Positions 10,466 through 53,938 of a stretch of 64,000 bases of DNA are shown piece after piece. Position numbers and translations under genes: made by a program. The notes beneath the pieces are model-generated. The model was not told where the DNA came from. It saw nothing but the letters and a program-made list of their open reading frames with translations, and made no database searches. The DNA lies in assembly GCA_005503065.1 (NCBI GenBank), contig SCOE01000010.1:1-64000 (forward strand). Direction: 5' to 3'. The stretch is from Comamonadaceae bacterium ALPHA2B. GTDB taxonomy: Bacteria; Pseudomonadota; Gammaproteobacteria; Burkholderiales; Burkholderiaceae_C. Each line of letters begins with the position of its first letter. Position 1 is the stretch's first letter.

Positions 10466-10490
10466 TGAGGATCGCGCTGTGTCGGAAATT

Positions 10491-27034: not shown

Positions 27035-27346
27035 TCAGGCGCCGGGCATCGCCGCGCCGCACTGCCAGCAGCGCTCGAACCCACCTTCGACGAATTCGCC
27101 GCACGCGCAGTGCCACTGCCGCTGCCGCTGCGGCGGATGCTGCAGCGCATGCAGCAGGCGGCGCGCACGCTCGAACTGCGCGTCGTCGTCGATCCAGATC
27201 TCGGGCAGGCACTGGTCCGGGGGCAACTGGCCGGCCACGGCGCAGAGGAACTCGCGCTGCACCGACGCGCCCACGCCCTCGCTGCGCAGCACGTCGGCCC
27301 ACAGCGTCGCGATCGCGAGGTTGGGGGCTTGGGCGAGGCGGCGCAT
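27035..27346 (-). CDS. DUF2007-type protein with C-terminal zinc ribbon
   Basis: A 103-residue protein. The N-terminal 70 residues (LAIATLWADVLRSEGVGA ... LPEIWIDDDAQFERARRLL) match the DUF2007 putative signal-transducing domain, a small ferredoxin-like fold. The C-terminus adds two cysteine pairs (HCACGE and RCWQCGAA) that look like a zinc ribbon. Function unknown. It is convergent with yaeQ and its start lies 15 bases after the stop of the upstream DUF3717 gene, so the two are probably co-transcribed. Confidence 0.75.
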   Translation of the reverse strand: MRRLAQAPNLAIATLWADVLRSEGVGASVQREFLCAVAGQLPPDQCLPEIWIDDDAQFERARRLLHALQHPPQRQRQWHCACGEFVEGGFERCWQCGAAMPGA

Positions 27347-29586: not shown

Positions 29587-29622
29587 CCCGCCGCAGGGCT
29601 CGCGCCCCGCGGCGTTTTTCTT
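29587..29622 (+). terminator. Rho-independent terminator after the terC unit
   Basis: CCGCCGCAGGG-CTCG-CGCCCCGCGGCG hairpin (imperfect stem) followed by TTTTTCTTT, 45 bases after the stop of the small membrane protein gene. Confidence 0.7.
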
Positions 29623-29669
29623 TGTGCGCCGTCGTCCCCGCGGTGCCGGCACGGCGCTATGCTGGCGCC

Positions 29670-30023
29670 ATGCGACTGATCCTCAAATGGCTCCTGAGCG
29701 CGCTGGCCCTGCTGGCGGTGTCGTACCTCTACGGCGGCGTGCAGGTCACCAGCTTCACCCATGCGCTGATCGCCGCGGCGGTGATCGGCCTGCTCAACAT
29801 GGTGGTGCGGCCGGTGCTGGTGGTGCTGACGCTGCCTGTCACCATCGTCACGCTGGGGCTGTTCCTGTTCGTCATCAACGCGCTGCTCTTCTGGGCCGCC
29901 TCGGGGCTGTTGAGCGGCTTCCACGTCAACGGGTTCCTGGCGGCGCTGCTCGGCTCGCTCCTGTACTCGCTGCTGGGCGTGGTGATCGAATCGGCACTGG
30001 GCGGCCTGTTCGCCCGGCGCTGA
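29670..30023 (+). CDS. Phage holin family 4-like (PF04020) membrane protein
   Basis: A 117-residue, four-span membrane protein. The conserved block AAAVIGLLNMVVRPVLVVLTLPVTIVTLGLFLF-type sequence, with the NxxVRP and LPxT positions, identifies the PF04020 family. Despite the family name these are ordinary chromosomal proteins of unknown function in most bacteria, and nothing else here is phage-like. Single gene, convergent with the large synthetase gene; a GCCGGCC..GGCCGGC hairpin without T run lies between them. Confidence 0.85.
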   Translation: MRLILKWLLSALALLAVSYLYGGVQVTSFTHALIAAAVIGLLNMVVRPVLVVLTLPVTIVTLGLFLFVINALLFWAASGLLSGFHVNGFLAALLGSLLYSLLGVVIESALGGLFARR

Positions 30024-30036
30024 CACGCCGGCCCGG

Positions 30037-33000
30037 TCAGGCCGGCTGGGTGCTCTGCGGCCGCGCGATCTGGCGCATCGTCTCGAAGAGCAGGCGCCGC
30101 GGCGCCACGCGCCAGCCCAGGCGCTCCTCGATGGCCAGCACCGCGCGCATGGCCAGCAGCGAATGGCCGCCGAGGTCGAAGAAGTTGTCGCCCGGGCTCA
30201 CGTCCTCCACCCCCAGCAGCTCGCGCCAGATGGCGGCGACAGCGGCCTCCTCCTCGGTGGCCGGTACCTCTGCCGTGCTGCTCTCGCCTTCGGCGGATGC
30301 GGGCGAGGGTGCCGGCAGCGAAGCGCGATCGATCTTGCCATTGGGCAGCAGCGGCAGCGCAGGCAGCGGCACGATGTGCTGCGGGACCATGTACTCCGGC
30401 AACCGCAGGCGCAGATGCTCGCGCAGCGCCGTGGCATCGGCCTGCGGCTGGTCGCGCAGCACGGCGTAGGCCACGAGGCGCACGTCGTCCTCGCGCTCGC
30501 AGCGCGTGACGACCACGCACTGCGCCACGGCAGCATGCTCCTGGAGCACCGACTCGATCTCGCCCAGCTCGATGCGAAAGCCCCGCACCTTCACCTGGTG
30601 GTCCATGCGTCCCAGGTGCTCAAGCTGACCGTCGTGGCGCCAGCGGCAGCGGTCGCCCGTTCGGTACAGCCGGGCGCCCGGCCGGCCGCTGAAGGGGTCC
30701 GGGACGAAGCGTTCGGCCGTGAGCGCATCGCGCCCGTGGTAGCCCAGCGCCACGCCCGCGCCCCCGATGAAGGCCTCGCCCGGCACGCCGATGGGACAGG
30801 GACGCCCCTGCGGGTCGAGCACATGCACCTGCGTGTTGGCAATCGGCCGGCCGACCGCGATGCCGGCGTGCGGATCACGGACCCGCCAGCAGGTGGACCA
30901 CACCGTGGTCTCGGTCGGGCCGTACATGTTCCACAGTGCGCCGCAGCAGCCCAGCAGGCGCTCGGCCAGCGCGGCTGGCAGCGGTTCGCCGCCGACCAGC
31001 GCGCGGAAGGCCGGGCCGCCGGTCCAGCCGGTGTCCAGCAGCGCGCGCCAGGCCGACGGCGTGGCCTGCATGGCCGTGATTTCGTGGCGCTGGATCAAGA
31101 GGCCCAGCTGCCGAGGGTCCTGGACCTCCTCGCGGCTGGCGATCACCGCCTGCGCCCCCACGGCGAGCGGCAGCAGCAACTCCAGCACGGCGATGTCGAA
31201 GGACAGCGTGGTGACGGCCAGCAACCGGTCGCCGGCCTGCAGGCCCGGCGTGTTCGCCATGCTGGCGAGGAAGTTGACCACCGCCCGGTGCGGCACCGCC
31301 ACCCCCTTGGGCCGGCCGGTGGAGCCGGAGGTGTAGATGAGGTAGGCCGCGTCGTCGGGCCCGGCGTCGAGCGCATCGTCCGGCGGCAGCGGCCCGGCGC
31401 CGCCCATGGCAAGGAACGACGGCGAAGCGATGTCGACCACCGGCACGCCCGGCGCCCAGCCGTGAGAGCCCGCGCCGGCGCCGGCCGTCACCAGCGCGGT
31501 GGGCTGGGCGCCCGCGACCATGTGGGCAAGGCGCTCGTGCGGGAAGGCCGGATCGAGCGGCACGTAGGCCGCACCGGCCTTGAGCACCCCGAGCATGGCG
31601 ACCACCATATGCACGTCGCGCGGGCCGCAGAGCCCGACGCGGTGGCCGCGCGCGATACCGCGGTTGCGCAACAGTCGAGCCAGGGCGTTGGAGCGCGCCT
31701 CGAGTTCGCCGAAGCGCAGTTGCACGCCTCCTGCGTCGACCAGGGCGACCTCGTCGCGCCGGGCCCGGGCGCCGATTCCCAGTTGGGTATGGACCAGTGG
31801 CCGCGCCGGCAGCGGCGCGGCCGTGCCTTGCCAGCTACCGATCAGCGCCTGCTCCGCGGGCGAGAGGCCGTCGAGGGCCGAGATCGGCAGCGCGTCGCCG
31901 ACCTGCAGCAGGCCCTGCAGCAGCGTCAGGTAGTTGTCGAGCCACCGCCGCGCGGTGGCCGGCAGGAACAGATCGGTGGCGTATTCGATGTGGATGCGAT
32001 GCCCGAACTCGGTGTCGACGTGCAGCGAAAGATCGAATTGCGCCGCCGTGCGGTCGAGCTCGAATTCCTCGTAGCGGAAGGGCACGGCGGGCAGCGCGCC
32101 CAACGGCGCGTTGACGACGTTGAAGAGCACCCGCACCAGGCCGTCGGGCTGACGGGCGCGGCCGCGGTCCAGGGCCTCGACCAGCTCGTCGAAGGGCATG
32201 TCCTGATGGGCGAAGGCGCCGAGCGCAGTGCGACGCACTCGTTGCAGCAGCTCGCCCACCGTCGGATCTCCCGACAGGTCGGTGCGCAGCACCAGCGTGT
32301 TGACCATCGTCCCGACCAGCGATTCCGTGAGCAGCTCGTGGCGATTGGCGACCGGAACGCCGACCGCCACATCGAGCACCCCGGCCTGACGCGACAGCAG
32401 CAGCTGGAAGGCCGCGAGTAGCACCACGAAGGGTGTGGCCTGCGCCCGCACTGCCGCCGCCTGGACCGCCGCCCGCAGCTGCGGCGACAGCGGCACCGAG
32501 ACCTTGCTGCCGCGGAAGCTGGGGCGCGCGGGCCGAGGAAAGTCGGTGGGCAGCAGCAGCGGCTGCAGGGCCGACAGGCGCGTCAGCCAGTAGTCCCGCT
32601 GCGCAGTGCGTCGTTCGACCTGCGCTGGCGCGTGCTGGTGCAGGGCGTGATCGGCATACTGCACGGGCAGGGCCGGCAACTGCGGCGTCCGGCCGGCGGC
32701 CCACGCGGCCTCGCACAGGAACAGCTCGCGCAGCAGCACCATCAACGACCAGTTGTCGGTGATGGCATGGTGCTGCGACCAAAGGAAGGCATGGTCGTCG
32801 TCGGCCAGGCGCGCCAGCGTGGCCCGGTGCAACGGCGCCTGCCGCAGGTCGAAGGGCATCGCCGCACGCGCGCTCAGCAGCGCACGCGCTGCCGCCTCGC
32901 GGGCACCCGGCGGCGTGGCGCCCAGGTCGATGCGCTCAAAATGCAATGGCGCGGACGGCTCGACGACCTGCATCACCCGCCCTTGCTGCAGCGTGAGCCG

Positions 33001-35298
33001 CGTGCGCAGCGCTTCGTGCCGCTGCACGAGCAACTCCAGCGCGCGCACGAGGCGCTGCGCGTCCAGCGGGCCACGCAGGCGCAGCGCCAAGGCCACGTTG
33101 TAGGCCACACTCTGCGGATCGAACTGCTGCACCAGCCACATGCGCCGCTGCGACAGCGATGCCGGCGATGGCGCCGTGCGGGAAGCCGCGGGCAGCGCAC
33201 CGACATCGGGCGCCTCCTCCGGCAGGCGCTGGCGCAACTGCTGCGCAAGGCGCGCCACGGTGGGCTCGTCGAGCAGCACGTCCCAGGGCAGCTGCACGCC
33301 CCAGCGATGCTGGACGCGCGAGGCCACCTGCGTCAGCAGGAGCGACGTGCCTCCGAGCTCGATGAAATGGGTGTGGGTGTCGAAGCCTTCGCGCCCCAGC
33401 ACCTCGGCCCAGATGTGCCAGAGCGCGCGCTCGATGGGGTCCGCGGGCGAGCAACCCTCTCCAGCCCTCTCGTGAAGCACGGCCAGCGGTGCCAGCGTGC
33501 CGTCGAGCCAGGCCTGCCGGCAGCGCCGGCGCTGGATCTTGCCGCTGGAGGTGCGCGGCAGCGCACCGCCGCGCATCAGCGCCACCGCGTTCACGGGCAC
33601 CTCGTGCGTCTGTGCCACGGCGCGGCGGACGGCGTGCAGGATCGCGCTCTGTTCCTCGCTGGACGACGGCCGCCCGCGTGCTTCCACCAACACCACCGCC
33701 GCGTCGCCTTGCGGCGTGTCCACCGCGAAGGCGCAGGCGTAGCCGCCGGTGCGCAGCTGCGGGTGGGCCTGTTCGGCGGTCCACTCGATGTCCTGCGGGT
33801 AGAGGTTCTGGCCATGGACGATGAGCAGGTCCTTCAGCCGGCCCGTGACGAACAGCTCGCCGCCCTCCAGAAAACCGAGGTCGCCTGTGCGCAGGAAGGG
33901 GCCTTCGCCATCCGCGCGCCGGGCCTGGAAGGTGGCCGCGCTGTCTGCGGGGCGATTCCAGTAGCCAGCACCCACGGCCGCGGAGCGCACCCAGATTTCG
34001 CCGACGCGATTCGCGGGACATTCGAGGCCGGTGGCCGGGTCGACGACGCTCAGCGTCACGCCTTGCAGGGCCGGGCCGCAGCTCACGACGGAACGCACCG
34101 TCGCGGCGGGGGCGGAAGGTGAAGCCGCGACGACCTCGTGCCGGTGGAGGGCATTGGCGTCGAGCCTCAGCGATCGCGCCGGCACGTGGATCGGACACCA
34201 GGACACGCCGAGCACCGATTCGGCCAGCCCATAGGCCGGCGCGAACACGCTGGGATCCAATCCCGAAGCGCTGAAGGCCTCCAGCAGTCGTCCAGCGGTG
34301 CTGGCGCGGATCGGCTCCGCCCCGCAGTGGAGCGAGACCAGGCTGTCGAGGCGCCCGGACCATGCCGTGTCGGCGTGCTGGCGCAGGCAGGCGGCGTACG
34401 CCGACTCCGGCGCGCCCGTGTGGGTGATGGCGAACGCGCCGACCGCATCCAGCCAGCGCAGTGGCCGGCGGAGGAAGGTCAAGGGCGACATCAGCCAGGT
34501 CGGCACGCCGTGAGCGAAAGGCAGCAGGATGCCCGACACCAAGCCGTAGTCGTGGAAGTGGGGCATCCAGTTGAGGAAACGGGAGTCAGGCTGTACCCCG
34601 AAAGCCGCGCCGAGCATGTCGAGGTTGGCCAGCACGTGGGAATGGCTGAGGCACACGCCGCGCGGCTCGGTGGTGGAGCCCGAGGTGTACTGCAGGTACG
34701 CCAGCGCGCCTGCGCCCACCGTTGGCAGCGCAGCGGTGGACGCGGCGCTTGCCAGCGTCTGCGGTGTCTCCCATCGCGTCCCCGCAGTGCCGAAGGCGTG
34801 CTGCATCGCGGACAGGGCCGTGGCGTCGCACAGGCCCAGCGCGGCCGCCGCATCCCGGGCAATGCCCTGCAGCCGGGGCAACCCGCGCTGCAGACGCGCC
34901 GCGTCGAGCGCGGGAACCGGCACGGCCACCCGGCCCGCGAGCAGGCAGGCCCAGAAGGCACGCACGAAATCCAGGCCGGGACGCAGCGCCACCAGCACGC
35001 GCTCGCCAGGCTGCCCGCATGCCGCCAGGCGCTGCGCCAGCACGACCGACTGCTGGTGCAGCGCCGCGAAGCTGAGTTGATCGGTGATCGACAGGTCGTC
35101 GGCCACCCAGCTGACAGCCGGCGCGGCGCCGTCCCCGGCGCATCGCGCATGGAAAAGATCGACCAGGGTGGCAACAGGGCGGACGGCGGTCGGATCCGAC
35201 CGCGGCACAACGGCGGAAGGGGGCACGGTCAAATGAGGAAGTTGTAAGGCCCGATGGGCGGGCCCCTCCCTGCACGTGATCGAGAGCGGATGGAACAT
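30037..35298 (-). CDS. FAAL-PCP-C-A-PCP nonribosomal lipopeptide synthetase, predicted N-acylglycine
   Basis: A 1753-residue assembly line. Domains in order: fatty acyl-AMP ligase (about 30-600: YLQYTSGSTTEPRG, RTGDLGFL, KDLLIVHGQNLYPQDIEW), carrier 1 (about 615-690, FIELGGTSLL), condensation (about 705-1150, HHAITDN near 844), adenylation (about 1180-1665, YTSGSTGRPKG, YRTGDR, NGKIDR) and carrier 2 (about 1675-1750, FFDLGGHSLL). The pocket residues I read against GrsA are D-I-L-Q-V-G-M-V-W-K, close to the glycine code DILQLGLIWK. So a fatty acid would be activated, loaded and joined to glycine. There is no thioesterase or reductase domain and no flanking biosynthetic gene, export gene or phosphopantetheinyl transferase in the window. 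Release mechanism and product are unknown. Confidence 0.9.
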   Translation of the reverse strand: MFHPLSITCREGPAHRALQLPHLTVPPSAVVPRSDPTAVRPVATLVDLFHARCAGDGAAPAVSWVADDLSITDQLSFAALHQQSVVLAQRLAACGQPGERVLVALRPGLDFVRAFWACLLAGRVAVPVPALDAARLQRGLPRLQGIARDAAAALGLCDATALSAMQHAFGTAGTRWETPQTLASAASTAALPTVGAGALAYLQYTSGSTTEPRGVCLSHSHVLANLDMLGAAFGVQPDSRFLNWMPHFHDYGLVSGILLPFAHGVPTWLMSPLTFLRRPLRWLDAVGAFAITHTGAPESAYAACLRQHADTAWSGRLDSLVSLHCGAEPIRASTAGRLLEAFSASGLDPSVFAPAYGLAESVLGVSWCPIHVPARSLRLDANALHRHEVVAASPSAPAATVRSVVSCGPALQGVTLSVVDPATGLECPANRVGEIWVRSAAVGAGYWNRPADSAATFQARRADGEGPFLRTGDLGFLEGGELFVTGRLKDLLIVHGQNLYPQDIEWTAEQAHPQLRTGGYACAFAVDTPQGDAAVVLVEARGRPSSSEEQSAILHAVRRAVAQTHEVPVNAVALMRGGALPRTSSGKIQRRRCRQAWLDGTLAPLAVLHERAGEGCSPADPIERALWHIWAEVLGREGFDTHTHFIELGGTSLLLTQVASRVQHRWGVQLPWDVLLDEPTVARLAQQLRQRLPEEAPDVGALPAASRTAPSPASLSQRRMWLVQQFDPQSVAYNVALALRLRGPLDAQRLVRALELLVQRHEALRTRLTLQQGRVMQVVEPSAPLHFERIDLGATPPGAREAAARALLSARAAMPFDLRQAPLHRATLARLADDDHAFLWSQHHAITDNWSLMVLLRELFLCEAAWAAGRTPQLPALPVQYADHALHQHAPAQVERRTAQRDYWLTRLSALQPLLLPTDFPRPARPSFRGSKVSVPLSPQLRAAVQAAAVRAQATPFVVLLAAFQLLLSRQAGVLDVAVGVPVANRHELLTESLVGTMVNTLVLRTDLSGDPTVGELLQRVRRTALGAFAHQDMPFDELVEALDRGRARQPDGLVRVLFNVVNAPLGALPAVPFRYEEFELDRTAAQFDLSLHVDTEFGHRIHIEYATDLFLPATARRWLDNYLTLLQGLLQVGDALPISALDGLSPAEQALIGSWQGTAAPLPARPLVHTQLGIGARARRDEVALVDAGGVQLRFGELEARSNALARLLRNRGIARGHRVGLCGPRDVHMVVAMLGVLKAGAAYVPLDPAFPHERLAHMVAGAQPTALVTAGAGAGSHGWAPGVPVVDIASPSFLAMGGAGPLPPDDALDAGPDDAAYLIYTSGSTGRPKGVAVPHRAVVNFLASMANTPGLQAGDRLLAVTTLSFDIAVLELLLPLAVGAQAVIASREEVQDPRQLGLLIQRHEITAMQATPSAWRALLDTGWTGGPAFRALVGGEPLPAALAERLLGCCGALWNMYGPTETTVWSTCWRVRDPHAGIAVGRPIANTQVHVLDPQGRPCPIGVPGEAFIGGAGVALGYHGRDALTAERFVPDPFSGRPGARLYRTGDRCRWRHDGQLEHLGRMDHQVKVRGFRIELGEIESVLQEHAAVAQCVVVTRCEREDDVRLVAYAVLRDQPQADATALREHLRLRLPEYMVPQHIVPLPALPLLPNGKIDRASLPAPSPASAEGESSTAEVPATEEEAAVAAIWRELLGVEDVSPGDNFFDLGGHSLLAMRAVLAIEERLGWRVAPRRLLFETMRQIARPQSTQPA

Positions 35299-35437
35299 TC
35301 GCGGCTGCTCTCGAACCGGGCGAATGGGCAGATGTTAATGCCTAAGTTCTAGTTTTTTGTCGGATGCGGCGCTGCGGGGGCGTGAGATATGGCATGAACC
35401 CGGCCGCGAGGTGCAGGGGCGAGCGCCTACTCTGCGC

Positions 35438-37027
35438 TCAGAGCGGCTTCTCGTTCATCTGCTCGCGCGCCTTGACGTCCACTTCGCGCGCGCGGGTGTC
35501 GATGATCGACGCCTCGTAGTGATCGATGCGCAGCGGCCCCCGGCCGTCCGCGTTGGCGCGCACCAGGTCCTGCGCCGCCCTGAAGCGGTCGCGCGCCGCC
35601 ACGTAGTCGAGGATGGCGACGTTGGCTTCGGCATCGGCGCGGATGGCGCGCAAGGTGTCGCCCTGCGCGTTGTAAAGCGCCGACAGGGTGCGCCAGGCAC
35701 CGCTGTCGCGCGGATGCCCGGCGACCCAGTCGCGCAGGGGTGCGGTCATCGGACCGGGGTTGCGGGTGGCGATGGCGGCCTGGGCCGCCAGCATCATCTC
35801 GGCGCGGTCCTTGGCCTTGACGTCGAGCAGCGCCGCCGCGGCCGGGCCGTTGCCGGCCGCGAGTTCGATCTCGGCCGAGAGCAGCCGCGCCAGACGCGAC
35901 GCGGCCGCATCGCCGCGGGTGCGCGCCACCAGGCGCTCGGCCATGGCTCGGGCCGTGCGCGCGTCGCGCAGCTCCGATGCGCCGTAGGCTGCGGCGTAGA
36001 GCGTGCCGGCCTGCTGGGCCGGCGAGCTCTTGGCGAATTCGCTGCTGTCGGCCGCCTCGACCCACTGCCGCAGCACGTCGACGCCCGGACGCGTGATCAC
36101 GCGGGCGCGGGCACTGACCATGGCATGGTCCATCACCAGCGGCAGCGGGGGCACGGCCTCGGCACGAAACTGGAAGCGGGCCTGCATCTCGGTGATGCGC
36201 TCGCTGGTCAGCGGGTGGCTGCGCAGGTAGGGGTAGGCGCCGTTGTCGTTCAGGCGCGAGGCGTATTGCAGCCGCTCGAACATGCTGGCCGCGCCGCGCG
36301 GCGAGTAGCCGGCCTGGGTCATGACGCCGTAGCCGATGCGGTCGGCCTCGCGCTCCATGTCGCGCGAGAAGTCGAGCTGCTTCTGCTGCGCGAAGGCCGA
36401 ACCGCCGGTCATCATGGCGGCGCCCAGGTCGCCGCCGCTGCGGCTCTTCGACGCCGCGACCGCGCCGAGGATCATGGCCGCGATGAGCCACGGCGCCTGC
36501 CGGCTCTGCTGCGTCAGCATCCGCGAGATGTGGCGCTGGGTGACGTGCGACAGCTCGTGGCCGAGCACGGCAGCCAGCTCGTCGCGGCTGCCGACCACGG
36601 CAATGAGCCCCATGTTCAAACCGAGGTAGCCGCCGGGCAGTGCGAAGGCGTTGATCGTGCGGTCGTGGCCGAGCAGCACGGTCCAGGCGTAGCGCTCGTC
36701 GAGCTCGGGCGTGAGCTCGCCGCGGGTGCGGGCGGCGGCCAGCAGGCGCTGCCAGATGTCCTGGACGTAGTCGACGATCACGGGGTCGTCGACATAGTCC
36801 GGGTCGCGGTACAGCTCGCGTGCGATGCGGTCGCCGAGCTGGCGCTCGGCGGTGGCGGTCATCTCTGCGCCGTCGCTCATGCCCGGCAGCACCTGGGCGC
36901 GTGCAGCGGGCATGACCAGCAGCTGCGACGCTATCAAAACAATAGCTGTAAGCGCCCGCCAGCCGGGCGCTGCAGGCCGATTTCGCTTGGAAACTCGAAG
37001 GAGGGAAGAGGGCGGGCGGTGGGTCAA
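35438..37027 (-). CDS. M48 metalloprotease with C-terminal TPR region, BepA-like
   Basis: A periplasmic zinc protease of about 529 residues. Zinc motif [13 protein letters not shown] (HExxH) at about residue 163, with third ligand in [11 protein letters not shown]; the C-terminal half is an alpha-helical TPR-like repeat region. Same layout as E. coli BepA (487 aa), which degrades misassembled LptD and BAM substrates. Start: TTG at 37027 with AAGGA seven bases upstream; no ATG fits before MPAARAQ. From that start, the signal peptide core ([19 protein letters not shown], then ARA/Q) is encoded by an inverted copy of the dispersed repeat. Divergent from moaC, 61 bases apart. Confidence 0.85.
36930..36992 (+). 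repeat. Dispersed GCTAT..ATAGC repeat, copy 7 (inside coding sequence)
   Basis: GCTATCAAAACAATAGC, then AGCGCCCGCCAGCCGGGCGC, then TGCAGGCCGATTTCGCTTGGAA. Near-consensus copy. On the minus strand it is read as codons of the M48 protease signal peptide. Confidence 0.9.
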
Positions 37028-37088
37028 GCAGCGGTCCTTGTCGAACGTCCGGACCCGTATGATGCGCTCCCGCCCGCTTCGTTCACGC

Positions 37089-37577
37089 ATGCCGACTTCC
37101 CCGCTCACCCACTTCGACGCCCAGGGCCAGGCCCACATGGTGGATGTGGCCGCCAAGCCCGCCACCCACCGCGTGGCCGTCGCCACCGGCGCCATCGAGA
37201 TGCGCGCCGAGACGCTGGCGCTGATCGAGTCGGGCAACGCGAAGAAGGGCGACGTGCTGGGCGTGGCACGCATCGCCGGCATCCAGGCCGCCAAAAAGAC
37301 CAGCGACCTGATTCCGCTGTGCCACCCGCTGGCTCTCACCCGCGTGGCCGTGGCCTTCGAGACCGCTGGCACGCCCGTGCCGCAGGTGCGCTGCACCGCC
37401 ACCGTCGAAACCGTCGGCCCGACCGGTGTCGAGATGGAGGCATTGACCGCGGTGCAGGTGGCGCTGCTCACCGTCTACGACATGTGCAAGGCGGCCGACC
37501 GGGGCATGACGATCACCGGGGTGCACGTGATGGAGAAGCACGGGGGGAAGTCGGGGAGCTGGGTGGCGGGGTCATGA
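37089..37577 (+). CDS. moaC: Cyclic pyranopterin monophosphate synthase
   Basis: A 162-residue MoaC, converting the MoaA product 3',8-cyclo-GTP to cyclic pyranopterin monophosphate in molybdenum cofactor synthesis. Start block [18 protein letters not shown], active-site motif [13 protein letters not shown] and KAADRGMTI are all conserved; length matches the family (about 160). No other moa gene is nearby. ATG 37089 is the start that aligns with homologues; the frame is open upstream but that region overlaps the divergent protease. Confidence 0.96.
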
Positions 37578-37639: not shown

Positions 37640-37987
37640 ATGCTCAAGTTTCGCGTCGTTGCCGCCCTGTCCTGCGCGTGCATTTTTCTCGGCAGCTCAG
37701 TCCACGCTGCACCCTTGAACGATCAGGTGCAGGGCATGCGCGAGAGCGCCAGGAGCAAGTTCCTGGGCATGCTGGTGCGCCAGAGCGGCGCGGAATGCAA
37801 GCAGGTCCAGCGCACCTTCTTCCAGGGCCAGGCGGACAAGGCGGCGCTGTGGAATGTCCGCTGCAGCGGCGGCAAGGGCGGCGACTTCGGGGTCGTCATG
37901 CTCGACGACGCGGCGAACACCGTGCGGGTGTTGCCCTGCGACCAACTCAAGGAATTCGGCGCCAGCGCGTGCTTTCGCAAGCTTTGA
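37640..37987 (+). CDS. Small secreted protein, unknown
   Basis: A 115-residue protein with a cleavable signal peptide (VVAALSCACIFLGSSVHAA, cleavage near residue 22). The mature part is about 90 residues with four cysteines (ECKQVQ, VRCSGG, LPCDQL, ACFRKL), suggesting two disulfides. I do not recognise a family. It lies 62 bases after moaC on the same strand; the contents give no functional link. The first hydrophobic segment and the coherent codon use argue for a real gene. Confidence 0.7.
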   Translation: MLKFRVVAALSCACIFLGSSVHAAPLNDQVQGMRESARSKFLGMLVRQSGAECKQVQRTFFQGQADKAALWNVRCSGGKGGDFGVVMLDDAANTVRVLPCDQLKEFGASACFRKL

Positions 37988-38008
37988 GGCGGCGTCGGAC
38001 GACGCACA

Positions 38009-38872
38009 TCACCGCGCACCGCCCGCCCCGCCGCCGAGGCTGACACCCGAAGCGCTATAGACCACCGCGACGCGCATGCGGGCCGCCGTAGGCCGTCCGT
38101 CGCGCAGACCCGGCGAGAAGCGCGTGCGAAGAAAAGCCTCCGTGGCAGAGGCCTCGAACCACCCCGGCAGCGTCGCGCTCACCACGGTGACGTTTCGCAC
38201 CAGGCCCATGGCATCGATGGAGAGGTCAAGCACGACCTCCCCAGAACGGATGCCGGCCGCGGGCGGATACACAGGTGCGACCTCCGACAGCGGGCGCGGC
38301 GGAACGTCGAGGTCGGTCGCGTCGGGGTCGACTGCTGCCGAGCCGGCCGGTGGCGGGTTCACAGCGCCCACGGTCGTGCCTTGCGACGCGGCGGGCGCCG
38401 CTGTTCGTTGGGCGGCTGCCCGCGTCTGGCGGTCGTGCGGCTCGGCGGGCGCCGACGGAGCGGGGGCCGTGCCCGCAGGAGGCGCCGGCGGTGGTGGCGG
38501 CGGCTCGGCCGGCGCCGACATCGACGTCGACACGGACCGCGTCGAGCGAGCCGCTCGTGGCACAGCCGATGCGTCAGCGGGCGCAGTCGGGGGGTGTGGC
38601 TCCGCCGCTGGCGCGGATCGCCTGGCGGCCGGCGCGGGCGTCGGCTGCACGGCAGCGGCGGCCGCCGGGCTGGCGCCACGCGGCGCAGAACGGTCCGCTG
38701 CCTCCAGCGCGGGAGCGGCATCCCGAGCGGCAATGAACCTCGCCTCCAGCACGCGCGGCGCCAAGGCAGGCCCGTCGATCCGACGCGGCCCAGCCAACAG
38801 CATCCAGAGCGCCGCGTGCAGCAGGATCGACAGGCACACGGCGGCCAGCAAGGCAGGGCGCCGTATGCTCAT
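38009..38872 (-). CDS. TonB C-terminal-domain protein
   Basis: A 287-residue protein with an uncleaved N-terminal membrane anchor (ALLAAVCLSILLHAALWML), a long Ala/Pro-rich periplasmic spacer (about 60-195, including PPPPPPAPP) and a C-terminal TonB-like domain (about 200-280: RPLSEVAPVYPPAAGIRSGEVVLDLSI, VVSATLPGWFEASATEAF, YSASG). The layout is that of TonB energy transducers, but no exbB/exbD is nearby. It starts 49 bases after the pilY1 stop on the same strand, so it is probably the last gene of the minor pilin operon; a role in the pilus or envelope rather than iron uptake is possible (inference). Confidence 0.82.
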   Translation of the reverse strand: MSIRRPALLAAVCLSILLHAALWMLLAGPRRIDGPALAPRVLEARFIAARDAAPALEAADRSAPRGASPAAAAAVQPTPAPAARRSAPAAEPHPPTAPADASAVPRAARSTRSVSTSMSAPAEPPPPPPAPPAGTAPAPSAPAEPHDRQTRAAAQRTAAPAASQGTTVGAVNPPPAGSAAVDPDATDLDVPPRPLSEVAPVYPPAAGIRSGEVVLDLSIDAMGLVRNVTVVSATLPGWFEASATEAFLRTRFSPGLRDGRPTAARMRVAVVYSASGVSLGGGAGGAR

Positions 38873-38921: not shown

Positions 38922-41900
38922 TCAACGGACGATCTCGCGCCAGCTGATGCGCTTGCCCTGGGGCGGGGGACTGCCCACCGGCACCGGCAGCGACTTGGTG
39001 GCACCGGTCGCATCGCGGCCCAGCGCGCGGAAGGTTCCGTCCGGCAGCGCCACGATGCCCAGGCCCACCACCACCGAGTTGGTGAAGAACTTGACCGAGG
39101 TCACTTTGTCGGTGCTCGACGCCACCGGCTCGCCGGTGATCAAGTCGACGTAGTTGAGCCAGCTGTAGCCGCCGCCGGCGCACATCGTGTTGCTGGGCAC
39201 GTTGGTCGCGAACACCAGCGTCCCGAGCACCGACTGCATGTCGACGTTCACCCGTTCGCCGTCGTCGGGCAGATCGATGTACCAGCCCACCGTCTTGCTG
39301 CAGTCCGACGCCTCGTTGCTCGCACACACGACGGTGCGCGTGGCCGTGGCGCCGGACCCGGTGGTCGTCATCTTCAGCGGCTTGAGCTGCGTGCGCAGGT
39401 TGCTGTAGAGCGGATTGTCACTGGACAGCGGGTCCTCGAAGCCATACACCGTCTGCGGACTCGGGTCGGTCAGGTCACTGGTGGACAGCATCTTGCCGGT
39501 ACCCACCAGCACCATGGTCTTGCCGTTGACCTCGGCCAGTTCGGGCCGCGTGGTGATCGGCTGCGCGTTGCCCGCAGCGTCCTTGGCGGTCGCCAGGCGA
39601 GTCGCCTCGAAGCCCGTCGGCGGAATCACATCGTTGATGTCGAAACGCCAGATATTGCCCAGCAGGTCGCCGCCATAGACGCGTTGCGCCGTGTTGTCGT
39701 AGACGAAGTTGTTGACGAAGGTGTTGATCTCGCGCAGCCCGCTCGGCGTGGTCGTGCTGCCCACACCGGTACCGATGCGCTGGATGATCTGGCCGTTGGC
39801 GGCGTTGAGCACGTAGAGAAAGCCCTCTCCCGTGCCACTGCTGCGAGTCGTGCCGGGCACGTTGTTGTAGCCGGACGTCACCAGCACCACCCATTGTCCG
39901 TTGCGCAACTTGGTGATGATCGGGCGCCCGAAGGTCAGGCCCACGTTGCAATCCGACGTGGCGCCGACCACCGTCGACGGACACACGCTCGAGAAATTGA
40001 ACTCCCACATGGCCTTCGGTGCCGTCGGGTCCGTGATGTCGAGCGCGTAATAACCGGCGCCACCGCCACCGAGCCCTCCGACCAGCATCGTCTTCCATGC
40101 GCCGCCGACATAAGCATCCCCCGTAATGGGTGTGCCGTCCACGAAGAACTGATGGCGGTCGGTGTAGTTGGTGTCGGCCAACTTGTAGAGATTGGCCATG
40201 ACGGCCTGGGGCACGAAGGCCCAGGCTTCCTGGCCGGCCTTGGCGTAGTTGGTGTCCGTCGTCTTGGCGGGAGCGTAGAAGGCATGCAACATGCCGTCGT
40301 TGGCACCGACGTACACCATCGGTGTGCGGTCCTTGTTGTTTTCCTTGAAGGTACCGTATCCCGTGTCCTGGAAAAACTGGCTGGGCGCCTTCACATAGGC
40401 GGGCTGCGAATTCACGATGTCGCCCAGCACATGCGCGCGCTGCCGATAGAGCTTCTGCGTGTTGGCCGCAAAGCCCTCCCGGCCGCGCTGGCCGCGCAGG
40501 TAGTTGACGAGGTTCGCACCGACCACCGCGCTGCGCTGGTCCACGGTGCCGCTCGAGCCGTCGGTCATGTACGGATACTGGCTCAGGCCGCCGGTGACTG
40601 TCGAACCCTGGAAAAACGCCTTCATCGTCGAAGTCAGCCCCGTCATGGACGAGCCGCTGGGAACGCCGGACGTACCGCACGTCTGCGTGTTCCAGGTGAA
40701 GCCCACGAGGCTGTTCGAATCGGGATCGCGTGTGTAGATGTTGCGGTTGTCGCAAGCGTCGCCGACCTTGGCGTCGAGCAGAGCCTGAGCCGACCACTTG
40801 ACGGTTGACGACAAGTCGCCGGTTGCGGTGTCCAGTTCCTGCGCCTGGACCTCGCCCGTCCAGTCCTGCGTGGTAAAGCTCGCCGTATACGCGATGTTGT
40901 CGCCGGCCGTCGGCGTGAGGCTCGAGGTGGATGCCCCGGCACCGGCGCCCGCCTGGGCCTTGATGCCCGCCAACGCTTCCTTCAAGCCGTCGACCACCGA
41001 CTGGGGGTCACGCGCACTGAAGTACTTGCCGCGGCCGTTCACGGCGGTGTGCCAGAAGTCGTCAATCGAGCGCGGATCGTTGTAGTCGGCGGAAGACAGG
41101 TTGCTGCCATTCGGCCAGATCGGCCAGTTCACCGGCGGGGTGTTCTCGTAGCTGCGAATGTTGGCGAAGTCGCCGGTGGTCGCGCTCTTGTAATCCTCGC
41201 GGTAGTTGACCGTGCCGGACACACCCAGGCCGACCACGAACGTGGTCATGTGCTGCCAGGGTGCCCTGTCGTCCTCGATGCCTGCACCCATGCGGGGGAT
41301 GTCATCCGGCTGCGAAGGGCGCAGGTCGGTCACGTAGTAGTACTGGGCCACGTCGGCCAGGGAATCCGAACTCCCCTTGACCCCACTGCCACTGACCGTT
41401 CCCTTCACGGTGACAGGCGTGCTCCAGTTGCCGGACACATCGACCGGTGGCGGTGCGGCCGGGGTCGCGTAACAGATGCTCGAGTCGGCCCAGTCGGTGC
41501 TCGAGTCAGTCTGGTTCTTCGCCGTCGACTCGATGGCCGTATCGCCGCTCACGTCGTAGGTGACCGTGGTCGTGCGGGTACGGCTCTGGATCTTGGTGCC
41601 GGGTACGGCGACACAGGTGGTGCCCTTCCAGCCATTGCCCGCGCTGGCCGCCACGGGCGTACAACTGCTGACCCGATCCGGCCCTGTGATTTCGGGCGCG
41701 CAGGTGGTTGTCAGGAAATTGCCATCGGTACCGGCAGAGCAGGACGCCACCGGCGTCGGCGGCGTGGTGACCGTGTTGCACGTGACGACCGGCAGGACGC
41801 CGGGCGGCGAAGGCACGCAGGTCCCTGCTGCCACACCGACCGTGCTGTCGGACGCCGTGCAGGTCGTGCGCGTGTAGTTGTTGCTGCTGCTCGGCGCCTC

Positions 41901-44900
41901 GCTGTTGCAGGTCGTGCCGGGCGCCAGTTGGATGGGTGCGGACGTGTTGTAGCTGCAGGTGGTGGACTTGAAGTTGGCGTCCACGCCTTCCGTGCAGGAT
42001 GCGACCAGGGTCGGGCCGGTGTTGACCGTGTTGCACGAGGTGATCGTGAAATTCGCGCTGGTGCCCGCAGAGCAGGTGCCGGCTGCCACGAAGGTCGGGC
42101 CCGTATTCACGGTCGCGCAGGTGATGCGCTTGTAGCCGTTTGCCGCACTCGGGGACTCGGCGACGCAACTGCCCTGGGCCACGCCGACCGTGCTGGAGGA
42201 CGGCGTGCAGCTGATGGTGGTCCAACCGTTGGACGCGCTGGCCGTCTGGCTGGTGCACGAGCCCGGCGTCACGTTGGTGGACGGGCTCGTGTTGGGCCCG
42301 GCCGAGCAGGTGGTGACCGTGAAGTTGGCGCTGGTGCCCGAGGTGCAGGTCGCCACCGGCGCCGGCGTCGTGGGGCCGTTCATGGCGCAGGTCGTGGCCG
42401 TCCAGGCGTTTGCCGACGAAGCGGCAACGGGCGAGCAGCTCCCCAGAGGCACCCCCGTCGGGCCGGTCGTCACGGCGGCCGGACACTTGATGGTGACGTA
42501 GTTGTTGCTGCCGTTGCCGGTTTGGGGTGTGCAGGACCCCGGAGGGGTGGGCACCGTCTCGGAATGGAAGTTGCAGTAGGTGCCCACGTTGCCGTTGCCG
42601 GGCCCGGCGTTTTGCGGCGTGCACGATCCGACGTTGGTTTCAGGCGAATCGGTGGTCGAGCATGTGGTGAACACATAGTTGGTCGACGCATCGCCACCGG
42701 GCGTGCAGGACGCGACAAGCGTGGGACCCGTCGTGACCTGGCGGCAAGTGACGTAGCTCGGGCCTGCGGTGTTGGGGACGCAGGAGGCCACCGGGACGTC
42801 TGTGAAGGTCCGCTGCTGGCACGCGGTACGAACGCCGTTGGTCGTGCCGGCGGTGCACTGGTTCGGCTGCACGGGCGACGGGCCCGAGGTCACCACTTCC
42901 TGACATTGGCGCTCGAGGAAGTTGTTGCTGGACGTCGGGGCCTGCGCCGTGCAGCTCGACACATTGGACCAATTCCCGAAGTTTGCGCCACCGCAAGTGG
43001 TGGTGATGAAGTCGTTGGACGAACTCGCAGCCGACGCCGTGCAGCTGGCGACGTTGGTCGTGTTCATGATCACTTCTGTCGTGCAGATCGTGGCGATGTA
43101 GTTTGGCGAACTTCCCGTTCCGGCAGTGCACGAGGCGACCCTGGTCGGTCCGCTCAGGGTTGCCTTGCTGCAGGTCGTGGTGGTGTAGTTGTTGCCCGAG
43201 CTTGCCGAGGCTGCGGTGCAGTTGGCAGCAGGCACGAAACTCGTGTTGTTGACCGTGTTGCAAGTGGTCGCGGTGTAGTTATTGCTCGAGCTTGCTCCCT
43301 GCGCGGAACAGGAGTTCACGCCGGTCGGGCCGGTGGTTGCCGTGTTGCAGGTCGTGACGACCTGGGTGGAGGAGTTGGTGCCGGGCGTACACGAGGCGAC
43401 CGGGTTGGTACTGGTGCTTGTGTTGCACGTCGTGGTGACGTAACTGGCGTTCGTTCCCGGGGTGCAGGACGTGACCGCGGTGGGGCCTGACGTATTGGCG
43501 CTGCAGGTCACCGTGGCGTAGCCGTTGCTCGCGCTCGGTCCCGCGGGGGTGCAGCTCGCAGCGGGCGTGGGCCCGTTGGTCACCGTCGCGCAGGTCGTGG
43601 TCGTGTAGTTGTTGTTGCTGCTCGGGCTTTGCGCAGAGCACGACGCGACTGCGGTGGGGCCGGTGGTCACCGGTGTGTCGCAGGTGCGGGTGAGGTAGTT
43701 GTTGCTGGCCGAAGCCGTCTGCGGTGTGCAGGAAGCGACCGGCGTCGGGCCGGTGGTCAGTGTCATGCAGGTGATGGTCGCGGTGTTGGTGCACGACGCA
43801 ACCGGCGTGGACCGCTCCGTGGCACCGTCGTAGGCCAGCAGTTGCGAAGTCCGCTCGAACTCGCGACGCGTGGACTGCATCTGGTAGGTGCGCGTCACCA
43901 GCGGCTGGTTTGTTGAGCGTGTGGTGAGCGTGTCAGTGCGACGCAGCTGGCTGGTGGACTGCGTGAGCTGGGAGGTCGACTTGGTGGTTTGTTCCGTGGT
44001 CTGGGAGACACGCGTTTGCCGCATCGTCTGCGTGCGCGTACGCGTCTGCAGCTGGTAGACGGTCTTCTCCATGTAAGTCGTCGTCTGCAGGTTCTGCGTG
44101 GTGCTGGCGTAGACCCTGCGCGAGCCGCTGCCCCACCACTCGCGCGTGATGAGCTCCTGCCGGGTGGACAAGGTCTGCTGCTGGGTGCTGGCAAGCGTCT
44201 GCGTGGCCGCGCGCAACTCGGTCTGCGTGGTCTTCCTGTCCTGCGTCGTCGACCGGCTGGTCTGCGACGTCGACGCCGACACTTGTTCGGTCGTCCGAGT
44301 CAGCGATTGCGTGCGCCGCGTGGGCTGAGACGTGGACTGGAACACCACCGAGGTGGTCCTGTAGAACTCGCCCGTATCGCACGTGGCGTAGCGGTTCATC
44401 GTCGACGTGCTGCTGTCGGTACGACTGCCCGAGGTCGTGCCGTCCCACATGGGCCGATGGCTGTACAGACGGGGATCGGTGCGGTCCAGAGAGGTCTTCG
44501 GCGTGAGAAGGCCGTCTTGATTTCCGACACGGGTGCTGCCGTCGAGCTGGACCGGGCCCACGGTTTCCTGTGCCGTGTTCCAGTAACCATCCGTTGTCAT
44601 GATGGTGAAGTTCTGGCGGCAGCTGTAGTTTTCCGGATTGGGATCCGGCGTCATGCCCGTATTAATGCCGTCCATTCGACCTGCAAAGTGTCGGCCTACG
44701 CGAGCCAGGCCTTCGCGCGCCGGGGAAGAGCCATCGGGCGTCTGACTGAAAAGCTTGGCGTACCAGGCGTTCTTCTGTGTTTGATCGAAATCGGCAATCG
44801 CCAGGTAGCGGGCGGAATTGACGCCGCTCGTGGCATTGCTGGCCGAGCCAGTCGCGTTCAGCGGATTCATGCTGATCAGGCCGACTCGGAATGTCTCGGT

Positions 44901-45674
44901 GATGGGGTTGAAAGCCAGGCTGATGCTGCTCTTGACCATCGCCATCCGGGTTCGGTAGTAGGTGTACCAAATGGCAAAGTTGCGCCGCTCATCCGGGCCG
45001 GCGGCGCCGGTTCCGGAACTGCTCGTGACCAGCTTGCGGACCCATTGGCCTCCCGTTGTCGACGCGCTGACCGATGATTGGGTCAGATCCCGCGTTGCGA
45101 AGAGGTTGCTTTCCATGTCCGTGCATGGCGCGGTGTTGTAAGCCAAGGCTGCCGTGCCTTGATAGACGTAGTAGTACGCGGGCTGGGCCCTGTCCTCTGC
45201 TGTGTTGGCAATCGAGATCTGCCGGGTGTTCCGGTCGTAGGCGCGGAAGGCCGTAGACAGGTCCACGGTCGTAACGTCGCTCGAAGAGTAGAAGTCGTAG
45301 CGCGCCGAGCTGAAATTCACGCTCGCCATGGTCTGCTGCAGGTTGCCGGCAGCATCGCGCGGGATCTCGTAGACCTTGGCCGGGTTGTAGTACAGCGCGT
45401 TGCACTGCGCGCTGCGATAGCCGATCGGCATTTCATAGGCCGCGCTACCGCCTGGAAACTCCAATTCGTCAGGCATGTGGGTGAAGGCCATGGACCGCGA
45501 CGTGTCCATAAGCAGCATCACGTTGGGCTTCGGCACCGCCTGACCGGTGCCCGCAACCGGTACGTTCGAGAGTTCGGTGACTGCGGCGCGCGCGGCATTC
45601 GGGAGCACAGCGGCGCCAGACAGCAGCAAGGCGCCGAGGATCGCCGACAGGATTCGTCCATCGAGTCGTTTCAT
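38922..45674 (-). CDS. pilY1: Type IV pilus tip adhesin PilY1 with giant Cys-repeat insertion
   Basis: A 2250-residue secreted protein, about twice Pseudomonas PilY1 (1161). Signal peptide ends near NAARAAV (about residue 30). A von Willebrand A-like domain follows, with the metal-site motif VMLLMDTSRSM (about 53-63). Then a Thr/Gln/Arg-rich segment (about 435-620), then about 26 imperfect repeats with paired cysteines (about 622-1358), a linker, and the C-terminal PilY1 beta-propeller (VYVGANDGMLHAFYAP, ALDITDP, GGDLLGNIWRFDI). PilY1 acts at the pilus tip in adhesion, surface sensing and control of retraction. Sixth gene of the pilE-led operon. Start at 45674 gives the signal peptide, with GGGGG about seven bases upstream. 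Confidence 0.93.
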   Translation of the reverse strand: MKRLDGRILSAILGALLLSGAAVLPNAARAAVTELSNVPVAGTGQAVPKPNVMLLMDTSRSMAFTHMPDELEFPGGSAAYEMPIGYRSAQCNALYYNPAKVYEIPRDAAGNLQQTMASVNFSSARYDFYSSSDVTTVDLSTAFRAYDRNTRQISIANTAEDRAQPAYYYVYQGTAALAYNTAPCTDMESNLFATRDLTQSSVSASTTGGQWVRKLVTSSSGTGAAGPDERRNFAIWYTYYRTRMAMVKSSISLAFNPITETFRVGLISMNPLNATGSASNATSGVNSARYLAIADFDQTQKNAWYAKLFSQTPDGSSPAREGLARVGRHFAGRMDGINTGMTPDPNPENYSCRQNFTIMTTDGYWNTAQETVGPVQLDGSTRVGNQDGLLTPKTSLDRTDPRLYSHRPMWDGTTSGSRTDSSTSTMNRYATCDTGEFYRTTSVVFQSTSQPTRRTQSLTRTTEQVSASTSQTSRSTTQDRKTTQTELRAATQTLASTQQQTLSTRQELITREWWGSGSRRVYASTTQNLQTTTYMEKTVYQLQTRTRTQTMRQTRVSQTTEQTTKSTSQLTQSTSQLRRTDTLTTRSTNQPLVTRTYQMQSTRREFERTSQLLAYDGATERSTPVASCTNTATITCMTLTTGPTPVASCTPQTASASNNYLTRTCDTPVTTGPTAVASCSAQSPSSNNNYTTTTCATVTNGPTPAASCTPAGPSASNGYATVTCSANTSGPTAVTSCTPGTNASYVTTTCNTSTSTNPVASCTPGTNSSTQVVTTCNTATTGPTGVNSCSAQGASSSNNYTATTCNTVNNTSFVPAANCTAASASSGNNYTTTTCSKATLSGPTRVASCTAGTGSSPNYIATICTTEVIMNTTNVASCTASAASSSNDFITTTCGGANFGNWSNVSSCTAQAPTSSNNFLERQCQEVVTSGPSPVQPNQCTAGTTNGVRTACQQRTFTDVPVASCVPNTAGPSYVTCRQVTTGPTLVASCTPGGDASTNYVFTTCSTTDSPETNVGSCTPQNAGPGNGNVGTYCNFHSETVPTPPGSCTPQTGNGSNNYVTIKCPAAVTTGPTGVPLGSCSPVAASSANAWTATTCAMNGPTTPAPVATCTSGTSANFTVTTCSAGPNTSPSTNVTPGSCTSQTASASNGWTTISCTPSSSTVGVAQGSCVAESPSAANGYKRITCATVNTGPTFVAAGTCSAGTSANFTITSCNTVNTGPTLVASCTEGVDANFKSTTCSYNTSAPIQLAPGTTCNSEAPSSSNNYTRTTCTASDSTVGVAAGTCVPSPPGVLPVVTCNTVTTPPTPVASCSAGTDGNFLTTTCAPEITGPDRVSSCTPVAASAGNGWKGTTCVAVPGTKIQSRTRTTTVTYDVSGDTAIESTAKNQTDSSTDWADSSICYATPAAPPPVDVSGNWSTPVTVKGTVSGSGVKGSSDSLADVAQYYYVTDLRPSQPDDIPRMGAGIEDDRAPWQHMTTFVVGLGVSGTVNYREDYKSATTGDFANIRSYENTPPVNWPIWPNGSNLSSADYNDPRSIDDFWHTAVNGRGKYFSARDPQSVVDGLKEALAGIKAQAGAGAGASTSSLTPTAGDNIAYTASFTTQDWTGEVQAQELDTATGDLSSTVKWSAQALLDAKVGDACDNRNIYTRDPDSNSLVGFTWNTQTCGTSGVPSGSSMTGLTSTMKAFFQGSTVTGGLSQYPYMTDGSSGTVDQRSAVVGANLVNYLRGQRGREGFAANTQKLYRQRAHVLGDIVNSQPAYVKAPSQFFQDTGYGTFKENNKDRTPMVYVGANDGMLHAFYAPAKTTDTNYAKAGQEAWAFVPQAVMANLYKLADTNYTDRHQFFVDGTPITGDAYVGGAWKTMLVGGLGGGGAGYYALDITDPTAPKAMWEFNFSSVCPSTVVGATSDCNVGLTFGRPIITKLRNGQWVVLVTSGYNNVPGTTRSSGTGEGFLYVLNAANGQIIQRIGTGVGSTTTPSGLREINTFVNNFVYDNTAQRVYGGDLLGNIWRFDINDVIPPTGFEATRLATAKDAAGNAQPITTRPELAEVNGKTMVLVGTGKMLSTSDLTDPSPQTVYGFEDPLSSDNPLYSNLRTQLKPLKMTTTGSGATATRTVVCASNEASDCSKTVGWYIDLPDDGERVNVDMQSVLGTLVFATNVPSNTMCAGGGYSWLNYVDLITGEPVASSTDKVTSVKFFTNSVVVGLGIVALPDGTFRALGRDATGATKSLPVPVGSPPPQGKRISWREIVR
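41590..43815 (-). repeat. Tandem Cys-pair repeat region within pilY1, about 26 units
   Basis: Each unit is about 25-31 residues, of the form VASCTP..ASSSNNYTTTTC followed by a GPTP-like spacer. I counted 26 units by eye, each with two cysteines about 13-18 residues apart. Serine, threonine and asparagine dominate. At DNA level the units are clearly related but diverged (no long identical blocks), so this is an old expansion, not a recent slippage array. Confidence 0.85.
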
Positions 45675-45685
45675 CTTCTGCCCCC

Positions 45686-46282
45686 TCAAAGCATGATCAT
45701 TTGTGTGTAGCTCACCGTGCCGCGCACCCCATCCACGCGCGCCGTGATCCGGTAGTAGGGTTGGCCCACGAGTGATGAGAAGCCACCGCCGCCACCGCCG
45801 CCACCGCCCGTCCCCAGGCTGGCGCCTGCCGCCTGCGGAATCGCGCAACGCTGACCCGGGTCGGTGGGCGGGCCGGCCGACGCGCAGAGCCGGTGGATCA
45901 CATAACGCACGCGATTGCCCGTGCCATCATCGGCCGCGGCCTCCTTCGCCTTGGTCCAGTCGAAGGTGATGGGATTGAAGGTCTCGTCCCAGGTCGCGAA
46001 ATACGCGGCGGCAGCGTTGTCGGCATTCAGCACATTCGGCGCCGACCTCTGGGCGTACACCCAAGCGAAGCCGGCTTCGGTGCCGAGGTCACCGAGCGAA
46101 GTGGCGTTCTGCTTGAAGCCGACGTTGCCGGCAATCTCCACGCCTGTACCGCCTGCGCGGAAGATCAACAGACCCGCGACCGTCATCACAGCCAGGACGA
46201 CCAGCGCCACGATGAGGACAATGCCGCGTTGGGAGCGTGCCCTGCCAAGCCGAGGCTTCGAAGTGCGGTGCTGCGGCTTCAT
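45686..46282 (-). CDS. pilX: PilX-like minor pilin
   Basis: A 198-residue protein with the PilX N-terminus: short basic leader, then QRGIVLIVALVVLAVMTVAG, a single hydrophobic helix of the pilin type in which the usual prepilin Glu+5 is absent, as is normal for PilX/GspK-like minor pilins. The globular part has a Cys pair and a poly-Gly run (GGGGGGGGG) near residue 168. Its ATG overlaps the pilW stop as ATGA, indicating coupling, and pilY1 follows 11 bases after its own stop. Likely part of the priming complex of the pilus tip with PilV, PilW, PilE, FimT and PilY1. Confidence 0.87.
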   Translation of the reverse strand: MKPQHRTSKPRLGRARSQRGIVLIVALVVLAVMTVAGLLIFRAGGTGVEIAGNVGFKQNATSLGDLGTEAGFAWVYAQRSAPNVLNADNAAAAYFATWDETFNPITFDWTKAKEAAADDGTGNRVRYVIHRLCASAGPPTDPGQRCAIPQAAGASLGTGGGGGGGGGFSSLVGQPYYRITARVDGVRGTVSYTQMIML

Positions 46283-47460: not shown

Positions 47461-47461
47461 A

Positions 47462-52371: not shown

Positions 52372-52386
52372 TGCAGCAAGGGCCGG

Positions 52387-53043: not shown

Positions 53044-53114
53044 GGCCGACTCTCCTGAAGAACGCGTGATGTGGGTTTGTCAGCAGGACCTGGGGAAACG
53101 GCCTTCCCGGTCTG

Positions 53115-53921: not shown

Positions 53922-53938
53922 GGACTCGGTTTCGGTTT

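Follow-up and report, generated by a model that had tools for sequence, protein, structure and literature searches.

The locus considered here raises the question of what becomes of a chain that is built by one large synthetase and ends on a carrier domain. The window, that is, the whole stretch of 64,000 nucleotides that was analysed, belongs to contig C1 of a 6.0 Mb genome, and at 30037..35298 on the minus strand, on which all synthetase coordinates given below lie, it holds a single open reading frame of 1753 amino acids with the domain order FAAL-PCP-C-A-PCP. Judged by its domains, this lone giant enzyme of a soil-type bacterium should join a fatty acid to glycine. Pfam matched two AMP-binding stretches, one Condensation domain and two PP-binding stretches, all far over cut-off, and the synthetase motifs that were searched for, namely the carrier serines (LGGTS and LGGHS), HHxxxD and the core motifs of the A domain, are intact; the arrangement in one protein, which had been proposed in an earlier reading of the sequence (the original prediction), is thereby confirmed. 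The FAAL domain (about aa 44-604, 33487..35169) carries YTSGSTTEPRG at aa 204 and SGKIQR at aa 585, and PCP1 (about aa 617-690, 33229..33450) carries the LGGTS motif. Activation of a fatty acid by the N-terminal domain, also part of the original prediction, is supported by homology: the fatty-acyl-AMP ligase models PRK05850 and PRK09192 scored 417 and 410 bits against 324 for the best CoA-ligase model, all of them under their own cut-offs, and the fatty-acyl-AMP ligases 3pbk, FadD32, FadD23 and FadD28 were among the best 60 PDB sequences. At the other end, the last Pfam PP-binding stretch stops at aa 1745 of 1753, leaving 8 residues, and a Pfam search of the whole protein of 1753 aa found neither a TE nor an R domain after the last PCP, in agreement with the claim that thioesterase and reductase are absent; no GlsB/OlsB-type acyltransferase domain was found by Pfam in the synthetase either.

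The identity of the amino acid rests on the adenylation domain (about aa 1177-1661, 30316..31770). When its pocket was aligned to GrsA, with the GrsA reference fragment compared with 1AMU, the code read D-I-L-Q-L-G-M-V-W-K; the glycine type that had been proposed was therefore retained, but the valine that had been read at position 299 was not, the residue being leucine. Rerunning the specificity prediction again gave glycine, DILQLGMVWK being close to published glycine codes such as DILQVGLIWK, shared with DhbF1 in the accessible part of its source (PMC4169593), and DILQLGMIWK, as given in an excerpt of PMC12283262. The identical code was found in our protein, in four close orthologue loci (DSM 19424, E41 and two MAGs) and in two Variovorax. 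Furthermore, a Delftia locus has a module pair with the Thr-type code DFWNVGMVHK followed by DILQLGLVWK, and this pair fits the Thr-Gly of delftibactin, as described in the available text of PMC5583390, and thus supports the glycine code. Because of the GrsA-aligned code, the published glycine codes and the Delftia/delftibactin fit, activation of glycine by the A domain is well predicted.

The condensation domain (aa 712-1152, 31843..33165) has the motif HHAITDN, not HHxxxDG, at aa 843 (window 32752-32772). It had been expected to be of the starter type, and this expectation was not supported. A tree computed for 132 C domains of the fetched loci, with orthologues counted apart and without a starter reference panel, placed this domain with a support of 1.0 in a clade of 16 that comprises itself, eight post-FAAL C domains of its own kin, six internal C domains of longer lines (L046 and L114-L118) and L141. 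The members from L114-L118 and L046 are C domains of last modules, that of L046 with a fused TE, and 24 other post-FAAL C domains lie outside the clade, the next node holding six of them with a support of only 0.40. The nearest supported kin of this domain is therefore, on this tree, the C domains of glycine-terminal elongation modules, and the simplest reading of the protein would be a FAAL-PCP joined to a last glycine module. The L141 locus (5545-10782, V. ginsengisoli) encodes a sister protein of 1745 aa with the same C-A(Gly)-PCP end, whose first AMP-binding domain gave no match to our FAAL. In L114 and L115 (genomes G049 and G165), a two-module C-A-PCP-C-A(Gly)-PCP protein with a signature carrier (see below) is encoded at a distance from the hydrolase pair of the same genome.

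The synthetase gene looks like its own transcription unit, because the upstream gene encodes a BepA-like M48 protease (35438..37471, minus strand, about 140 bp away) and the downstream gene, encoding a PF04020 holin-like membrane protein (29622..30023, plus strand), is convergent; neither neighbour is counted in the system. Within 5 kb, the M48 protease is followed on its flank by the start of a PilY1-domain protein, and the other flank holds the holin-like protein, TerC, DUF3717 and YaeQ, with PurB beyond; a downstream protein of 154 aa matched no family. In agreement with the original prediction, no accessory gene was found within 5 kb on either side, in that the annotated neighbours are all non-biosynthetic, the short open reading frames 27035-27346 and 37723-38046 lying outside the scan. 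An operon with the upstream same-strand gene was considered and rejected, since the M48 protease is present without the synthetase in the same-genus genome G177 and in V. ginsengisoli, in both of which the protease/holin-like site is empty. Upstream of the gene lies an element of 22 bases, CTAGAACTTAGGCATTAACATC (35331..35352, minus strand), of which the window has a single copy. Our own locus and the orthologue loci of DSM 19424, E41 and L038 carry an exact match to its core of 12 bases; the fifth close locus, L039, has no exact match. A promoter element common to the orphan and contig C46 (see below) was rejected, because among 223 loci the exact core was confined to orphan loci; at two mismatches, the core was found in five further places.

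The gene is kept as a stand-alone gene in Xenophilus and close kin, with related copies in Variovorax; a look for such conservation was among the checks proposed with the original prediction. The nearest orthologues (82-85%) are those of X. aerolatus DSM 19424, E41 (two records) and two MAGs named to phylum, followed by two Variovorax (56-57%) and a gamma MAG (51%). For the whole protein, dN/dS came to 0.23-0.24 in comparisons with four close orthologues and to 0.47-0.53 in those with the two Variovorax; for PCP2 alone it ranged from 0.19 to 0.52 among close orthologues. Variovorax N23, the two MAGs and the Xenophilus records all have the orthologue at the same site, whereas V. ginsengisoli and L042 have it at other sites; a further, divergent copy (L142) is present in DSM 19424. 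In the fetched loci, the neighbours vary among Xenophilus, V. ginsengisoli, L042 and L142, and no constant partner stands beside the orthologues, a partner that the original prediction had named as evidence against itself.

If no partner is linked to the gene, the last carrier itself may show where the chain goes. PCP2 (about aa 1680-1747, 30058..30261), recognised by Pfam and by its signature, ends in RVAPRRLLFETMRQIA (aa 1730-1745, 30064..30111), a kind of ending that was seen in chain-end carriers only and can be written as RRLxFE[ST]LxQIA, of the RRxxFE[ST]LxQ[IL]A type. The pattern was composed after the sequences had been seen, and with orthologues counted apart and the window's own copy outside the set, it occurred in 21 of 38 chain-end carriers, in none of 81 internal carriers and in none of 21 carriers that precede a TE or another tail. 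A carrier profile search of the fetched loci recovered 30 rows at 69 bits or more, which represent 27 distinct PCPs once 3 duplicates are set aside; the distance from the end of the carrier to the stop is 0-45 aa in all of them. Directly before 18 of these 27 stands an A domain, of the glycine type in 17 of the 18, the exception being the module of L151 with the code DVRHVSLVEK; for the other nine, none was found just before the carrier. In L046, the homologue with a fused TE, the carrier is of the ordinary kind. For PCP2, both the motif and the position at the protein end are present, and HYD1 and HYD2, the hydrolases described below, are encoded in the same genome; by these marks, it is in a class of chain-end carriers that would stand where a fused thioesterase would be.

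The same signature closes a second PKS/NRPS locus on contig C46 of this genome (G000:C46; L034 3949-18251), where a PPTase and two hydrolases are encoded as well. The order on C46 is A(Gly code)-PCP-KS-AT-PCP-C, then C-A(Gly code)-PCP with the signature, then the PPTase, HYD2 and HYD1. The C-terminal C domain of the first protein is without HHxxxD (TTHAAVCDR), and its E41 counterpart has a class-III aminotransferase in the C-terminal part; the second protein begins with an intact C domain (HHIICDG). C46-like lines in relatives (L134, L136, L137 and L139) end in C-PCP, with a last carrier without an A domain. The hydrolase pair, encoded with the PPTase (C46:26332-28227), was compared across 15 loci that hold both hydrolases at more than 90 bits: in HYD1, GxCSG (G[LIF]CSG) is present in all 15 and an Asp-His pair in each of the 14 readable rows, and HYD2 has G-x-R-[LI]-G, with arginine at the nucleophile site, in 14 of 15. 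Because of the GxCSG and GxRxG motifs, HYD1 should be an alpha/beta-hydrolase with a cysteine nucleophile, and HYD2 is likely a non-catalytic partner without the usual nucleophile.

Carrier, hydrolases and PPTase also occur together across genomes. HYD2, a PPTase match and a C46-type module are present in each of the nine orphan-bearing records (eight strains, with two records of E41), and in the same-genus genome G177 we found neither these three nor an NRPS match marking the orphan. Among 200 genomes of the family, our own included, the best signature-carrier score reached 85.1 bits or more in 11 and stayed at 74.0 bits or less in all others; the same 11 had a best HYD2 score of 105.8 bits or more, against 98.6 bits or less elsewhere. 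The thresholds were set at these score gaps, and no more than 28 carrier and 12 HYD2 candidates were scored per genome. The overlap corresponds to a Fisher p of 2.6e-18, the genomes being related and representing nine genera; the carrier profile had been trained on sequences from eight of the 11 genomes, with G165, G016 and G119 outside the training set. In eight of the 11 genomes, HYD2 and the signature carrier are no more than 1.2 kb apart, and in G091 the distance is 16 kb; in G049 and G165, HYD2 lies away from that carrier, among glycosyltransferase- and deacetylase-type genes and not beside an NRPS. At the level of the order, where 399 genomes were searched with at most 14 carrier candidates scored, four genomes of genus g150 in another family had carriers of 99-110 bits and HYD1 in four of four (best 145-152 bits). 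Three order-level genomes fell inside the carrier gap (75.6, 77.7 and 78.9 bits), and of seven at 73-79 bits, four had HYD1 matches (52-96 bits) and three had none. For instance, G368 combines a carrier of 73 bits with a HYD1 match of 96 bits, and the carrier of 78.9 bits in G426 has the tail FQQTVGQIA, which is not the signature; a HYD2-like gene follows this carrier directly, and the HYD1 match of the genome scores 79 bits. The co-occurrence may come in part from a common need for the PPTase or from shared descent across the nine genera.

The description of the gene as an orphan is therefore true for linkage, as orthologues lie at several loci without a fixed partner, but it does not hold for the genome, which has a second line with a shared signature; the gene is unlinked yet not isolated, because its last-carrier signature is shared with the C46 line and signature and hydrolases co-occur. 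For the same reasons, C46 encoding the PPTase and the hydrolase pair, release by an unlinked enzyme is favoured among the fates that the original prediction had listed. From the gene, domains, motifs, conservation, code, shared signature and co-occurrence, all of which were computed directly, we infer the loading, condensation, hand-over to HYD1/HYD2 and product as follows. The FAAL would adenylate a fatty acid and load PCP1, the A domain would adenylate glycine and load PCP2, and the C domain would condense both to a fatty-acyl-glycyl-S-PCP2. HYD1, assisted by HYD2, would then take over the acyl-glycyl group as a thioester and hydrolyse or transfer it, giving an N-acylglycine or an acyl-glycyl conjugate. 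We give a probability of roughly 0.5 to this reading, in which an acyl-glycyl thioester is made on the synthetase and off-loaded in trans by the C46-encoded HYD1/HYD2. HYD1 and HYD2 may, on the other hand, serve the C46 line only, because HYD2 is on another contig than the orphan in nine of nine orphan-bearing records. Alternatively, slow hydrolysis or a general thioesterase could free the chain, the signature being a mere mark of descent of the terminal module. The genome does contain seven weak thioesterase-family matches, four of them over cut-off, and the C, A and PCP domains of the terminal modules are related; however, the signature is also found at the end of carriers in the C46 and C-PCP lines, which are less related, and HYD2 follows its distribution over the 200 family genomes, so that we regard this explanation as quite improbable.

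The chief rival to off-loading by HYD1/HYD2 is that the orphan is an unlinked lipid-loading subunit of the C46 line, whose PCP2 would pass the acyl-glycine to a C46 C domain for a longer lipopeptide. An acceptor could be the intact C domain (HHIICDG) with which the second C46 protein begins, and the orphan co-occurs with C46-type modules. Moreover, some FAAL-PCP-C-A-PCP proteins have additional NRPS genes close to them (L120-L122 and L143), and the rival is kept alive by G129, whose homologous PKS-NRPS, PPTase and hydrolases have as their direct neighbour a FAAL protein with a terminal module of this kind. In contrast, PCP2 is of the chain-end class, as is the carrier of the last C46 protein, and this class included none of the 81 internal carriers; the 8 residues that follow the last PP-binding stretch leave no room for a docking tail, and the C46 line starts with an A-PCP of its own. 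We therefore consider a loading role unlikely.

Transfer, not release as a free acid, is the other fate that was weighed. HYD1 could be an acyltransferase that moves the acyl-glycine from PCP2 to a glycan, a lipid or a protein. Thioester-using polymerases such as PhaC have a cysteine nucleophile box, which that of HYD1 resembles, and the G049 pair lies among glycosyltransferase and polysaccharide-deacetylase matches, with similar open reading frames in G165 and G032. HYD1 and HYD2 are also related to the exosortase A-associated hydrolases 1 and 2 (TIGR03100 and TIGR03101), which they both match as a neighbouring pair, under the curated cut-offs (70 versus 168 and 91 versus 203 bits); here, unlike in those systems, the pair is encoded with a PPTase and an NRPS, and the exosortase is on another contig. 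Craig et al. in 2011 are reported, in papers that cite them, to have tied N-acyl amino acid synthases to exosortase systems. However, no glycosyltransferase was present among the ten C46 genes scanned, and an exosortase was found in none of G049, G165 and G032 and yet is present in G177, which is without the system; the exosortase was therefore rejected as a partner, and an acyltransferase role for HYD1 seems rather improbable. In the G129 exosortase locus, a pattern scan of the picked open reading frames of L185 and L186 flagged no signature carrier, the scan using a stricter first version of the pattern that missed the chain-end carriers of G119 and G165 and an ORF picker that skipped some true genes.

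FAAL-led NRPSs are well known, as stated in the accessible text of PMC11837247. The top NCBIfam match of our protein is NF004282 (1250 bits, under its cut-off of 4090), PvdL is among its solved relatives, and FAAL-initiated lipopeptide NRPSs of this PvdL type share the N-terminal FAAL-PCP-C-A-PCP order. Unlike them, the synthetase described here has one module, no linked next subunit, a chain-end PCP and a C domain like that of a last module. Truncated surfactin synthetase, engineered to yield N-acyl glutamate according to an excerpt of PMC11511702, is likewise a shortened assembly line for an N-acyl amino acid, whereas the present case is a natural stand-alone gene, for glycine and without a fused TE. 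A GlsB-type N-acyltransferase, which makes N-acylglycine in the part of PMC12479983 that was available, would give the same predicted product class by an unrelated enzyme, in contrast to the ATP-driven activation on carriers predicted here. Among the matches listed in searches of the open-access literature, which were available in part, there was neither a natural NRPS route or stand-alone synthetase for N-acylglycine nor anything on point for hydrolases of the HYD1/HYD2 type acting on an NRPS.

More broadly, we suggest tentatively that TE-less, glycine-ending NRPS lines with a signature carrier could share one trans off-loading system, consisting of a Cys-hydrolase and an Arg-substituted pseudo-hydrolase, with the orphan as its simplest client and a natural one-residue lipo-glycine synthetase; the exosortase-associated hydrolases may then be relatives that unload carriers in polysaccharide clusters. 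If this is true, acyl-glycines would have a natural route of the assembly-line type, TE-less NRPSs could be paired by a mark in their sequence with release enzymes that are not linked to them, and two 'hypothetical' hydrolases would gain a role that can be tested; it would also be a warning that cluster-based genome mining overlooks dispersed pathways.

Several further observations were made at these loci. Another A-domain protein is encoded in the same genome at G000:C44:113359-115170 (L144), with the open reading frame picked at 1372 aa, and its E41 relative of 1617 aa (L145, 7498-12351) has hexapeptide repeats; we take this kind of protein to be reminiscent of Pls-type single-module synthetases. 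Within the window, a PilY1-domain protein of 2308 aa is followed by minor-pilin-type genes with PilW, GspH and ComP matches (38922-49022), and a CHASE2 adenylate/guanylate cyclase gene lies beside FHA and PP2C phosphatase genes at 50095-54032.
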